A stretch of 64,000 bases of DNA from an uncultured cyanobacterium (GCA_937899645.1 CALCCD010000050.1:1-64000); one strand, 5' to 3'; counted from the stretch's first letter, positions 52,230 through 56,986 are shown. Numbers and translations: made by a program. The notes: generated by a model not told the origin, from the letters alone.

Positions 52230-53492
52230 CTAACGACGCACCGACTGGCGATCGCCCGCCGCCGCTTGGTAAATCTCGCAGTACTGCGGATGCCCGCCCG
52301 CCAGGACGACATCGAGATGCAGCGGATCGTCGGTGTCGCGATCGTCACCAGGACTCGCGAGCATCACCACCCGATCGCCCTCATAGCCCAGCTCGACGGC
52401 CTTGCGATTCTTCAGCTCGCCGCCGCTGCTATCCACATAGACAACCAGATTGTCGCGATCGAACGCCTGTCCGATCGCCTGGACGAGCTGGAGGAAATTG
52501 CGATCGCTGCCGCCGCGCCGCGCGATTGGCCCGCCATCGACGATCTCGACGGTGCTGGTTACGGTGTCGCCGACGCCGACGATCGTGGGCATGTGCGCCG
52601 GGTCGAAGCGATCGCACACCAGCGCCAGCAGCGCGTCGTGGGTTTTCGGTGCGGTGCGGGCGCTGAACTCATCGCCCAGCGGGGCCGTGCCGGTGCGCGA
52701 TCGGTAGTGGCGGTTGAGCAATGCCACCACGCCCGCTTCTTTAATCGCGCCGCCTAGCATGAACTGAAAATCCGTCGTGCCGGAGTCGCCGTCGGTGGCG
52801 TGGCGTACGAGTTCGATGCCGCGATCGTCGCGACCCAGATTGGGGGCGTAGTGGATGAAAAATGAGTCGGCGAGATCCTGCGCGGCGGCTTCGGTCAGCA
52901 GCGTTTCCATCAGGGTTTGCATCGCCTGCTGGATTTCGCTGTAGAGCGCGGTGTCGGCGTTAAGGAAGCGGTAGAGGGCGTTGAGGTTGGCGGTGGGCGA
53001 GGCGATATTGTCGAGTACCGCCGAGTCGATCGCCTCGCGCAGTCCGGCGTCGATGTCTGTGCCCTTGGCCGCGAAGAATTTCTCTAGGGTCTCGGTGATG
53101 CGCACCGGAACTTCTTTCAAGAACGCCAGCTCGCGATCGCTGACGCCGGGATGGGACACCACGCCATCGCGCTCCTGCCACTGGACGCCGCCCGCCGCGA
53201 GGCCGGGAAGGTACGATCGCTGCGATTTCGCCGCTTTTTCTCCACCGACGGCCCGCTCGACGATGCGATTCACCCCGCGCGTACCGGTGTGTTCGCCGTT
53301 GGTCAGCACGAAAAAGTGGCCGTCATAGGCGCGACTGGCTTCGAGATAGGCCGGATCGATCTGGCGGGTCAACGGGTCGTTGACTAGGCCCATGCAGACA
53401 CCGTCGAGGTCTTGAACGATGAGTAAATTTTCAGTCTTTGCAAGCGTTCGATGCAGGAGATCGGCGTCGATGGCGGTGGGGAGAGCAGTCAT
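52230..53492 (-). CDS. stpA: Glucosylglycerol 3-phosphatase
   Basis: A 420-residue phosphatase that removes phosphate from glucosylglycerol-phosphate to give the compatible solute glucosylglycerol. The start LIVQDLDGVCMGLVNDPL carries the DxDG phosphatase motif. FVLTNGEHTGTRGVNRIVER and the long family-specific body follow, with TIVGVGDTVTSTVEI near the end as the acidic metal-binding motif. The protein is diagnostic of moderately halotolerant cyanobacteria. ggpS is not in the window. The gene is divergent from the sugar-phosphate cyclase, sharing a 242-bp intergenic region. Confidence 0.93.
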   Translation of the reverse strand: MTALPTAIDADLLHRTLAKTENLLIVQDLDGVCMGLVNDPLTRQIDPAYLEASRAYDGHFFVLTNGEHTGTRGVNRIVERAVGGEKAAKSQRSYLPGLAAGGVQWQERDGVVSHPGVSDRELAFLKEVPVRITETLEKFFAAKGTDIDAGLREAIDSAVLDNIASPTANLNALYRFLNADTALYSEIQQAMQTLMETLLTEAAAQDLADSFFIHYAPNLGRDDRGIELVRHATDGDSGTTDFQFMLGGAIKEAGVVALLNRHYRSRTGTAPLGDEFSARTAPKTHDALLALVCDRFDPAHMPTIVGVGDTVTSTVEIVDGGPIARRGGSDRNFLQLVQAIGQAFDRDNLVVYVDSSGGELKNRKAVELGYEGDRVVMLASPGDDRDTDDPLHLDVVLAGGHPQYCEIYQAAAGDRQSVRR

Positions 53493-53734
53493 GGTCGTTG
53501 GAAGTCTCGAAGTCGGCTCTCTTCAGGCTAATCGACCGGGGATCGCGCAGGCATTGCCTGCGCTGCAATTAGTAATTTTTCTCATGGCTCGCACCAACAG
53601 CATACCTTGGATCGAACCTTCATTTCCGTAATGTTTGCTTAATCTTGTTAGGGGCGATCGTGTTAAGTTTTGCGAATAAGCGGTCTCGGTGCTCCTCACT
53701 TAGTCCGCTCGCAAGAGATTTACGGAAATTCGAC
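53493..53734. promoter_or_regulatory. Divergent stpA/cyclase intergenic region
   Basis: This 242-bp gap must hold the promoters of both divergent genes. I see no clear operator palindrome except GCAGGCATTGCCTGC (about 53547-53561). No small gene is evident. Confidence 0.4.
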
Positions 53735-55495
53735 ATGACAAAGACGACTTCGGCGGTTCAGGCCTTTGTTGGTTCTTACGATCGTGATGTGCTGACTGCG
53801 CCAGACCTGGAACAGGCTGCACTGACGATGAGCTCGAGTCAGCCGTTTAAGGAGCTTCTGCTCGTTCTGATTCGGTGCGGTGCGTTCGATGAAGCGCTCG
53901 GGCAAGAGTTCGCAGCTGCCAACGCGATTGAGGGCCTGGCAGCATGCCGTCGCCTGCGAAGCTGCCTGGGTGGCAGTCTCGGCTCTTTCGTGGGTTTGCT
54001 GTCCGAGCTGCTGTCGGCTTTCGACGCAGAAGCGGGCCAAGCATGGTCGGCGTTCGCCAAGCGCGTTTGCCAAAGCGAGCTGGGTGAGACGAAGCTGATG
54101 AGCCTGCTGAAACGCAGTGCCGACGGTGAGTTTTTCAGTGCGTTGGCAGAAGAGCTGGTCGCCAACGACCCCCACGCCATCTACCCCACCTCCAGCTATC
54201 GCTCCGGTTCGGCCTACGTCGTCAGCACCGACGACGACCAAAACATCGAAGCGGTGATGAACTCCAGCACCTTCACTTCGGTCAAGGTGGTCGAGAACTC
54301 CCTCGATCCGTCGGAAACGACGCTGAGCGACCTGTACGCTGCCCACGGCCGTTGCGTTGCCCTCGTCGATCGAAACGTCGAGGAATACTACGGCACGCAG
54401 CTCGAGCAGTACTTCGCGCACCACGGCATCAAGCTCGACAAGCTGGTCTACCGCGCGATGGAAGTCGATAAAGGCATCCACACCGTCGAGCGCATGTTGG
54501 GCGACTTCAAGCGCCTGGGCGTTTCGCGTAACGAGCCGGTGCTGATCGCGGGTGGCGGCGTGCTGGCCGATACGGGCGGACTGGCTTGCTCGCTCTATCA
54601 CCGCAACACGCCTTACGTGATGCTTTCGACCTCGATCGTTGCGGGGATCGACGCTGGCCCCTCGCCGCGTACTTGCTGCGATGGCTTTGGTTATAAAAAC
54701 CTTTTCGGTGCGTACCACGCGCCGGTGGTCTCGATTACCGATCGCTTCTTTTTCAAGTCGCTGCACGGCGGCTGGCTGCGTCACGGCATCGCCGAAATTA
54801 TCAAGATGGCGACCGTGAAGGATCTCGAGCTGTTCTGCGACCTGGAAAAAGCTGGCGAAGCGCTGATCGAGACCCGCTTCGGCACGCTGGACTGCGACCC
54901 GAACGGCGAAATCGGCGCGCTGTCGCAGAAAATCCTGGCGGCAGCACTGCGCAGCTACGTGGAAGCCGAGTACGGCAACCTGTACGAAACTCACCAGTGT
55001 CGTCCGCACGCCTACGGTCACACCTGGTCGCCTGGTTTTGAAATCGCTTCGGGCCTGCTCCACGGTCACGCGATGTCGATCGGGATGGGCTTTGGTGCGT
55101 ACCTCAGCTACCGCGAAGAGTGGATTGCGGAAGACGAGATGCACCGCATTATGAAGCTGATCTCGTCCTTCGGCCTGAGCCTCTGGCACGATATTGTCCT
55201 CGACGAAGAAATTGTCTGGGAAGCGCAAGTCAAGATCGTTCAGAAGCGTGGCGGCAATCTGGTTGCACCGCTGCCGAAAGGCGCGATCGGTCAGTGCGGC
55301 TACCTCAACGACCTGACACGCGGCGAGCTGAAGGCAGCGATTGCGGACTATCAAGCCATCTGCAACACCTACCCGCGCAAAGGCTGGGGCGTCGAAGCGC
55401 TGTGCAGCGATGTCGGCCTCGAAGATCCTTCGACGATCGCACACCGCGTATCGCTAGAGTCGGCTCCTGCCGAAGTGGAAGAAGTGCTGGTTTAG
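53735..55495 (+). CDS. Sugar-phosphate cyclase (DHQ synthase-like) with N-terminal helical extension
   Basis: A 586-residue protein. The C-terminal part (about 180-560) is a dehydroquinate-synthase-fold cyclase with the NAD motif PVLIAGGGVLADTGGLACS. The three zinc ligands are in HGIAEIIK (near 352), YGHTWSPG (near 428) and LLHGHAMSIG (near 443). The DHQ synthase segment VGGKTGVN reads GPSPRTCCDG here, so it is not a true DHQ synthase. It best fits enzymes that cyclise sedoheptulose 7-phosphate (EEVS, EVS or DDGS groups). The first 150-170 residues are helical and unlike the usual enzymes. An EboD-type role is an alternative. The exact product is undetermined. ATG 53735 is used. Confidence 0.82.
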   Translation: MTKTTSAVQAFVGSYDRDVLTAPDLEQAALTMSSSQPFKELLLVLIRCGAFDEALGQEFAAANAIEGLAACRRLRSCLGGSLGSFVGLLSELLSAFDAEAGQAWSAFAKRVCQSELGETKLMSLLKRSADGEFFSALAEELVANDPHAIYPTSSYRSGSAYVVSTDDDQNIEAVMNSSTFTSVKVVENSLDPSETTLSDLYAAHGRCVALVDRNVEEYYGTQLEQYFAHHGIKLDKLVYRAMEVDKGIHTVERMLGDFKRLGVSRNEPVLIAGGGVLADTGGLACSLYHRNTPYVMLSTSIVAGIDAGPSPRTCCDGFGYKNLFGAYHAPVVSITDRFFFKSLHGGWLRHGIAEIIKMATVKDLELFCDLEKAGEALIETRFGTLDCDPNGEIGALSQKILAAALRSYVEAEYGNLYETHQCRPHAYGHTWSPGFEIASGLLHGHAMSIGMGFGAYLSYREEWIAEDEMHRIMKLISSFGLSLWHDIVLDEEIVWEAQVKIVQKRGGNLVAPLPKGAIGQCGYLNDLTRGELKAAIADYQAICNTYPRKGWGVEALCSDVGLEDPSTIAHRVSLESAPAEVEEVLV

Positions 55496-55510
55496 TCCGC
55501 GCATTCCTTC

Positions 55511-55630
55511 TGAAACCGGGTTTCTAGGAGTGTGCAGATAAGCGTCCAGCTCGCGGTAGGGCCGTCACGGCAGTGCGCCCGCGATCATCGTTCCCTCAAC
55601 ATCGGCATCCGGGCGCATTGCCATGCGCCC
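55511..55630. repeat. Two repeat-family members downstream of the cyclase gene
   Basis: TGAAACCGGGTTTCT at 55511-55525 belongs to the AGAAACC family. GGGCGCAT-TGCC-ATGCGCCC at 55611-55630 is a near copy of the hairpin at 34951-34970, with the same CCTAC flank. Confidence 0.75.
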
Positions 55631-55667
55631 CTACGACTGAATTGGCTGTTTATTTTGTTGGAGCGTG

Positions 55668-55798
55668 CTAGGGGCTGTCATTAATTAGATTTCCAGCGCT
55701 TCTCCAGTCAGGGCTTCAGCCCCTAGTTCTATTTTTGGGTCGGGCGTTCAACAACCTGTCCCGCAAGGGGTCTAGCGCTAATTGATGACACGCCCTAG
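55668..55798. mobile_element. MITE-like element of about 131 bp
   Basis: The ends are imperfect inverted repeats: GGGGCTGTCATTAATTA on the left and, on the complementary strand at the right, GGGCGTGTCATCAATTA. Both are bounded by CTAG, a possible 4-bp target duplication. The interior has no coding capacity and contains its own small inverted pair (GGGGCT.../AGCCCCTAG). I infer a non-autonomous transposon remnant; the parent family is not identified. Confidence 0.6.
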
Positions 55799-55891
55799 GG
55801 GCTTTTTGCCCTTGGCACGTATCGACCTTCAGGAACCCGGTCTCTCACTCGTTAACTTTCAAGCCCAGGCGTGCTGTCGCGTCTGGGTTTG

Positions 55892-55962
55892 CTGTAGAGC
55901 GCCATCTGTAGAACCGACCGCAAAGAACCGACTGTAGAGAATCGACCGTAGAGAACTGGAGA
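55892..55962 (+). repeat. Tandem array of about five 13-15 bp units
   Basis: Units of the type CTGTAGAACCGACC are repeated imperfectly up to the ribosome-binding site GGAGAG of the DUF6492 gene. A hairpin CAAGCCCAGGCG...GCGTCTGGGTTTG lies just upstream at about 55859-55891. Confidence 0.7.
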
Positions 55963-55969
55963 GAAAGTC

Positions 55970-56986
55970 ATGGCTGATTTCGATATCGTTATTCCGCTAT
56001 TCAAATCGCGCTGGAACACGCGATCGACTCTGGAGGGGCTGAGCCAGTGCTACTCGCCGCGATCGATCCACATCATTACGCCCGGAACCGAGGTCAGAGG
56101 GCTACGCGCCCAAGCCGCAACCTGGAAAACCGCGCCGCTGACTGTGCATTCTGAGGACGAGTTTTTCGCCGCCAGCGAAGCGGGCCTGAGCAAAGATGCG
56201 ATCTGCGCCGAGCTAGATCTGGGCGAGTCGCTCTACAATCCTGGCTGGTTTTACCAGCAGCTCCTTAAGGTCGGCGCGTTTGAAGGCATCGCCGACCTGA
56301 GCGAGTGGTATGTGGTTTGGGATAGCGACCTGCTGCCGATCGACACCTGGCCGCTGGTGGTCGAAACCGAGTCCGGTCTCGATCGCCCCTTTGCATTGCT
56401 GCAACACAATGCCTACGGCAACCCGGCGATCGTCTCCAAATGGGAAAACTGGATTACGACGGTACTGGGCGTCCCGGCGATTAAAGACGAGGTCGGCACG
56501 TTTATTCCGCACCATATGTGGATGAAGCAAAGCCACCTGAAGGCGATGGCCAAGCAGGTGCAAAGTTACTTTAAATCCGACGAACACTGGCTGAAGCTAA
56601 TGATGCGATCGGCCAACGAGTTCGGCACTTTCGGCGAGTACTGGATTTATTCGTCCTGGGTGGCGGCCACCGCGCCGGAGGATCTGAAATTCCACCCCTA
56701 CGACCCCTACGGCGAAACCACCGAGCGCTTCTTCGACGACGGCACGGGGCTATTTTCCGCGAAGCTGCGCGAGCACCTGGGTCTGCCGTCCGATACTGAT
56801 GTGCCGTTTAGCCCGTCCTACGTCGAGGTGTCGGAATTTATCCCCACCGCCTACGGCGACGATCCGCTGCCCTCCTCGATCGCTTTTGAGAGCAGCCCGC
56901 GCCACCTAAAGAAAAACGTGGCCAACGTCCATATCGAAGAGAGCCGCTCGCGCTGGAACCCGCGCGCCGACCTCCAAAAAGCCTAG
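55970..56986 (+). CDS. DUF6492 family, glycosyltransferase-like protein
   Basis: A 338-residue soluble protein of the DUF6492 type, which resembles nucleotide-diphospho-sugar transferases. The start FDIVIPLFKSRWNTRSTLEG reads like a GT-A first strand, and VVWDSDLLPI near residue 120 carries a DxD-like metal motif. Further features are PFALLQHNAYGN, FIPHHMWMKQSHLKAM and FGEYWIYSSWV. No membrane segment is seen. It is the next gene after the sugar-phosphate cyclase on the same strand, 474 bp away, which makes a cyclitol or sugar-linked acceptor attractive but unproven. GGAGAG precedes the ATG. Confidence 0.75.
   Translation: MADFDIVIPLFKSRWNTRSTLEGLSQCYSPRSIHIITPGTEVRGLRAQAATWKTAPLTVHSEDEFFAASEAGLSKDAICAELDLGESLYNPGWFYQQLLKVGAFEGIADLSEWYVVWDSDLLPIDTWPLVVETESGLDRPFALLQHNAYGNPAIVSKWENWITTVLGVPAIKDEVGTFIPHHMWMKQSHLKAMAKQVQSYFKSDEHWLKLMMRSANEFGTFGEYWIYSSWVAATAPEDLKFHPYDPYGETTERFFDDGTGLFSAKLREHLGLPSDTDVPFSPSYVEVSEFIPTAYGDDPLPSSIAFESSPRHLKKNVANVHIEESRSRWNPRADLQKA

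Follow-up and report, generated by a model that had tools for sequence, protein, structure and literature searches.

We examined a locus on a 64,000-nucleotide stretch of DNA from an uncultured cyanobacterium (GCA_937899645.1 CALCCD010000050.1:1-64000; the whole stretch is called the window), in which a gene for a long sugar phosphate cyclase is followed on the same strand by a gene of the DUF6492 family. The cyclase open reading frame (ORF) is open from the ATG at 53735 to the stop at 55495; mechanical ORF calling started at a TTG at 53645, but the homologues begin at the ATG instead. One contig scan found cyclase homologues of 53-75% identity in 59 other genome contigs, which excludes a chance ORF for these genes. 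The features of the locus are as follows.

53735..55495, + strand: long-form sugar phosphate cyclase of 586 aa, of the line of desmethyl-4-deoxygadusol synthase (DDGS, MysA); Pfam DHQ_synthase and DHQS_C, similarity to DDGS 5TPR, clade support 100/99
53735..54175, + strand: N-terminal domain (cyclase aa 1-147) with an all-helical prediction; an orphan in searches, with no known relative
54656..54700, + strand: active-site loop GPSPRTCCDGFGYKN, aa 308-322, from the alignment of homologues
54968..55012, + strand: E412 and A426, two positions like DDGS and unlike 2-epi-5-epi-valiolone synthase (EEVS), from alignment with 5TPR and 4P53
55970..56986, + strand: DUF6492 protein of 338 aa, a probable glycosyltransferase of fold type A (GT-A), from PF20102, a DxD motif and remote matches of the predicted fold
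56321-56329, + strand: DxD motif of the DUF6492 gene, D118-x-D120 within WDSDLLP
55496..55969: intergenic gap of 474 nt with two dispersed repeats, at about 55553-55656 and about 55667-55802
52230..53492, - strand: stpA, glucosylglycerol-phosphate phosphatase, the divergent neighbour (PF09506, 5e-163)

Pfam matched the cyclase to DHQ_synthase (3.4e-15) and DHQS_C (5e-15). Its score of 124 bits against the AroB model TIGR01357 lies so far under the cut-off of 305 that the protein is not AroB, and a separate complete AroB is encoded elsewhere in the window's genome. The closest solved relatives are Anabaena DDGS (5TPR; E 5e-80, fold template modelling (TM) score 0.92) and the EEVS ValA (4P53), and the core is 39% identical to DDGS versus 22% to AroB. 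The zinc ligands E354, H429 and H443 and the GGGVLxD NAD motif are retained, whereas the GGKTGVN loop of AroB is absent and GPSPRTCCDGFGYKN stands in its place, confirming what an earlier sequence-only reading of the locus had noticed. This loop is invariant across 24 long homologues, Y320 excepted, and its R312 occupies the position of a lysine in dehydroquinate synthase (DHQS), EEVS and DDGS.

To place the cyclase we built a tree of 68 cores, which comprised long proteins, shorter cyclases sharing the GPSPRTC loop (short GPSPRT), DDGS, ValA, EEVS-like, AroB and EboD-type proteins. The 24 long proteins formed a single clade (support 100/99) whose sister is the short GPSPRT group, and these two clades were jointly sister to DDGS (100/100), so that the window cyclase does not fall inside the 5TPR DDGS clade. 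ValA, one EEVS-like protein, AroB and the EboD-type proteins all lay outside this group. These data support an alliance of the cyclase with the C7 (sedoheptulose 7-phosphate, SH7P) cyclases rather than with DHQS, as the sequence-only reading had proposed, and its core stands apart from the true DHQ synthases.

A fingerprint set of active-site residues distinguishes the SH7P cyclases (PMC4426668). At the three positions that separate EEVS from DDGS, placed by alignment with 5TPR and 4P53, the window cyclase has E412, A426 and K504, of which the first two are DDGS-like (E, A, T in DDGS; L, D, H in EEVS) and K504 matches neither. Membership of EEVS was rejected, the protein neither grouping with ValA nor carrying the L, D, H fingerprint, although it shares the zinc ligands and the SH7P cyclase fold with that enzyme. 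Membership of EboD was also rejected on its tree position far outside and on the lack of ebo genes beside the long cyclase. The additional DHQS-like proteins of about 410 aa in these genomes were likewise considered as MysA, but those examined were EboD-type, with EboA nearby where checked; the exception is that of genome G001, a short GPSPRT MysA, and the same genome also carries a long cyclase with its transferase.

The first 147 or so residues of the cyclase are predicted to be all-helical, with a predicted local distance difference test (pLDDT) score mostly above 90. The domain gave no family match in Pfam, NCBIfam or the PDB, and profile and fold searches of the PDB returned nothing convincing, so that the extra helical residues the sequence-only reading could not recognize still resemble no known fusion domain when searched alone. 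Against 242 genomes of the class, strong matches to a profile of the domain were confined to long cyclases, including a few fragmentary or frame-broken ones, and to one decayed remnant beside a transferase. An apparent split domain at short GPSPRT hits was discarded, the DNA showing that the match merely extends upstream of a gene of about 440 aa.

In several bacteria the long cyclase occupies the place of MysA in mycosporine (mys) operons, namely in Halomonas, Haliea, Bacteroidota, a planctomycete and a few cyanobacteria. The mys-type contigs, from Halomonas, Haliea, Polaromonas, Bacteroidota, an alphaproteobacterium, a planctomycete and two cyanobacteria (L037 and L039), carry an O-methyltransferase and an ATP-grasp protein, usually with a D-Ala-D-Ala-ligase-like protein and often with a HAD protein and a TauD-type dioxygenase; no ligase-like gene lies nearby in Halomonas, L037 or L039. 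These neighbours are of the MysB, MysC, MysD and MysH types, the names MysB and MysC being given by synteny and not by direct comparison with the characterized Anabaena or Nostoc proteins. In the cyanobacterial sample, each DDGS-type MysA has within 5 kb a hit of 600-700 bits to a MysC profile made from these loci. All of the deepest-branching long cyclases (from Bacteroidota, the planctomycete and the alphaproteobacterium) are located in mys operons, and the pairing with the transferase therefore looks derived. Some contig bins with odd names, such as a Flammeovirgaceae bin (L041), may be misassigned, and a neighbour once considered as a mys link at L003 (family 4) proved by Pfam to be a true D-Ala-D-Ala ligase.

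Three features of the mycosporine clusters themselves were observed in passing. HAD and TauD genes are known from clusters for mycosporine-like amino acids (MAAs) but are reported to be absent from those of cyanobacteria (PMC11888242), whereas in Oscillatoria sp. CS-180 (L179, 3735-8780) such genes lie ahead of mysBCD. A second O-methyltransferase (Methyltransf_2 plus dimerization domain) follows mysC at L037:14123-15175, L039:14296-15384, L180, L185 and L186, in clusters lacking MysD, and perhaps yields a differently methylated mycosporine. In genome G051 (L186/L156) an EEVS-like cyclase with a AKTAVNFQGHKN loop adjoins MysC and a divergent MysB-like gene, so that this mycosporine-type cluster is apparently begun by an EEVS-type enzyme.

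MysC was found in 40 of 386 cyanobacterial genomes, together with a DDGS-type cyclase in 25, an EEVS-like cyclase in one, a short GPSPRT cyclase in 11 and the long cyclase only in three. In the 25 DDGS-type and 11 short GPSPRT genomes the cyclase lies within 5 kb of MysC, while in the three long-only genomes the two are hundreds of kilobases apart or on separate contigs. Most Pleurocapsales mys clusters are reported to lack mysA, with the role of the mysA-like homologues unknown, and the set studied includes LEGE 10410 and Hyella patelloides, for which the published mys cluster has no mysA (PMC8472315). In the DNA we saw mysBC without mysA, and a long cyclase elsewhere in the genome, in Hyella patelloides, LEGE 10410, Oscillatoria CS-180, Myxosarcina and others; in cyanobacteria of this kind, Hyella patelloides included, no MysA-like gene other than the long cyclase is present, and it is encoded away from the mys cluster. 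On these sequences the long cyclase is a natural candidate for the absent MysA of the mysA-less clusters.

Compared with DDGS (Ava_3858, 5TPR), the long cyclase shares the zinc and NAD sites, the fold, two fingerprint residues and a place in the mys operons of other bacteria, but it adds the 147-aa domain, carries the loop GPSPRTCCDGFGYKN where DDGS has SVAIKVAVNHRKLKN, has K504 in place of T and is usually unlinked from mysBC in cyanobacteria. The short GPSPRT MysA of cyanobacteria (L119-L129, L155) has the same GPSPRTC loop with K preceding RG, is sister at 100/100 and is followed by MysB in the loci examined; it differs in being about 440 aa long without the N-terminal domain, in a loop that continues TNGKQFKN, in its core (47-49% identical) and, for each of the 11 genomes sampled, in a distance of no more than 5 kb from MysC. 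A 'DDGS?' clade, related to but distinct from DDGS and perhaps of other activity, was described by Yurchenko et al. in 2016 (PMC5133447); it may be the long-cyclase clade, and the accessible part of the account mentions no fusion, transferase or mys link.

Of 61 loci compared, 40 have the DUF6492 gene immediately downstream of the cyclase, which bears out its association with the cyclase beyond the window. The protein matches PF20102 at 1.5e-8, and the D118-x-D120 of its WDSDLLP motif is invariant in 17 homologues. A Foldseek search with the predicted model (pLDDT 76) returned remote matches to GT-A enzymes and also to IspD-type nucleotidyltransferases, which share that fold. From the motif and the modelled fold we consider the protein a probable GT-A glycosyltransferase, in line with the DxD-type appearance noticed earlier; the literature searched did not mention DUF6492. 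A solitary transferase was seen at L157 (G366:C136, 4117-5112), with no cyclase nearby, in a genome whose sole MysA is of the short GPSPRT type.

The transferase and MysC are distributed in a complementary manner. Among 47 long-cyclase genomes, 28 have the transferase only, 12 MysC only, seven both and none neither (p=1e-6), and of the 386 cyanobacterial genomes five carry an intact transferase gene, every one with a long or short GPSPRT cyclase (p=1.2e-7), both p-values being measures of association and not of independent events because the genomes are related and partly draft. In most cyanobacteria having the long cyclase, MysB and MysC are absent and the DUF6492 gene lies directly after it. 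Profile searches found neither MysB nor MysC in the window's own genome, which is listed as 100% complete, and true MysB (>375 bits) is confined to genomes with full-length MysC.

Two genomes show decayed states of the pair. Genome G033 has a stop-ridden N-terminal cyclase remnant (L176, G033:C201:78500-84500, at 1188-2668) immediately before an intact transferase, and also an intact long cyclase within a mys operon. Myxosarcina (L158, 2780-4786) has an intact long cyclase with the adjoining transferase in fragments and a mysBC cluster elsewhere, so that here the transferase is lost where the mycosporine route is present. Both states fit two alternative downstream partners for one cyclase product.

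Taken together, we propose, with a probability of about one in two, that the long cyclase is an alternative MysA whose product goes to mycosporines where MysB and MysC are present or, in the window's genome, is glycosylated by the DUF6492 enzyme. The clade, operon context, co-occurrence, active-site residues and GT-A resemblance on which this is built are read from sequence, and from them we infer the substrate, the product and its glycosylation, the sugar and the physiological role. The cyclase would be a zinc- and NAD-dependent SH7P cyclase of the DDGS line, closing the ring of SH7P supplied by the Calvin cycle or the pentose phosphate cycle to give desmethyl-4-deoxygadusol (DDG) or a C7 cyclitol isomer very close to it. 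Where MysB and MysC are present this product would become a mycosporine; without them, as in the window's genome, the GT-A-like enzyme would add a sugar, and the result would be a gadusol-type UV-B screen or antioxidant bound to a sugar and free of any amino acid. Such a sugar would plausibly stabilize and retain an oxidation-prone, UV-B-absorbing enolone. The fuller claim, that the two genes make up a previously undescribed pathway by which many cyanobacteria lacking mycosporine genes produce a gadusol-type UV-B sunscreen bearing a sugar but no amino acid, and that the same cyclase is the missing MysA, we hold somewhat more tentatively, at a little short of an even chance.

Several observations weigh against this proposal. 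The product might be a different one, given the K-to-R and N-to-D changes in the loop and K504 (where DDGS has T and EEVS has H); the DUF6492 family match is weak and the fold matches remote (TM about 0.4). MysC and the transferase coexist in seven genomes, so that the partners are not strictly exclusive; related genomes do not count as independent events, and many of those sampled are drafts or metagenome-assembled genomes. In addition, no long or short GPSPRT-type cyclase has a reported activity in the literature searched, and no metabolite is known.

The strongest competing explanation is a different C7 cyclitol as the cyclase product, 2-epi-5-epi-valiolone or 2-epi-valiolone for example, with a glycoside made by the transferase that serves as a compatible solute or other protectant and not as a UV screen. 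The loop and K504, which are unlike DDGS, point this way, as do the glucosyl-3-phosphoglycerate and mannosylglycerate synthases found among many other enzymes in the transferase fold search, and stpA adjoins the cyclase in the window's genome. However, in the tree the core branches as sister to DDGS rather than to EEVS, E412 and A426 are DDGS-like, the long clade replaces MysA in mys operons, where 4-deoxygadusol is required, and the stpA neighbour is not conserved; we give this explanation about one chance in four. An stpA homologue was present at none of the 59 other cyclase loci, leaving salt co-regulation without comparative support, and stpA is probably not a member of the cyclase/DUF6492 unit. 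The sunscreen-like cyclitol glycoside that the sequence-only reading had suggested as possible remains a sensible reading, and its link to the salt response is not supported; the sequence-only reading, supported in part, had overlooked the mycosporine operons and the complementarity with MysB and MysC.

Less probable still is a transferase that glycosylates finished mycosporines, with the cyclase a plain MysA and the genomes lacking MysB and MysC either importing mycosporines or having lost them. MAA glycosyltransferases are known, for example MysG1 of Nostoc sp. UHCC 0302 (PMC11378024), which likewise links a sugar transferase to an MAA-type pathway, and MysC and the transferase occur together in the seven genomes above, in one of them at a single locus (L041/G034). 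Against this, 28 of the 35 transferase-bearing long-cyclase genomes, the window's included, lack MysC, true MysB appears only alongside MysC, and the cyclase/transferase unit stays intact in the MysC-less genomes; moreover, MysG1 is annotated as GT4 (PMC11378024), whereas the DUF6492 protein is GT-A-like, with a DxD motif, and is found mostly in genomes without MysB and MysC. A second DHQ synthase for the shikimate route, with the transferase adjacent by chance, is the name that Pfam and automatic annotation would give, and it is already contradicted by the tree, as well as by the full AroB elsewhere, the core identities and a neighbour conserved in 40 loci. An Ebo-like isoprenoid-cyclitol pathway with an EboA-type N-terminal domain is equally implausible: EboD, like the long cyclase, is related to DHQS and is thought to produce a cyclitol (PMC5133447), and the EboA model (140 positions) is near the domain in length, but EboD-type proteins lie far outside in the tree, the domain aligned to EboA with an hhalign probability of 0.1%, ebo genes are absent beside the long cyclase and the window's genome gives no EboA match, which already contradicts this idea.

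The gap between the cyclase and DUF6492 genes is 3-365 nt (median 56) in the 37 loci measured elsewhere, and that of the window is lengthened to 474 nt by two dispersed repeats. The two repeat families have more than 40 genomic matches combined, one copy of the second being 99% identical, and the second repeat (55667-55802) resembles a small mobile element whose inverted ends are imperfect.

If the proposal is true, cyanobacteria without mycosporine genes would have a shorter, sugar-bound route to a sunscreen-type compound, and the reported mysA puzzle in Pleurocapsales (PMC8472315) would gain a concrete answer in the use of an unlinked long cyclase. The pair is small enough for direct testing in E. 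coli. The DUF6492 family would thereby receive a candidate role, which, like the mycosporine link and the sugar-bound route, is concealed by the automatic annotation of the cyclase as a DHQ synthase.

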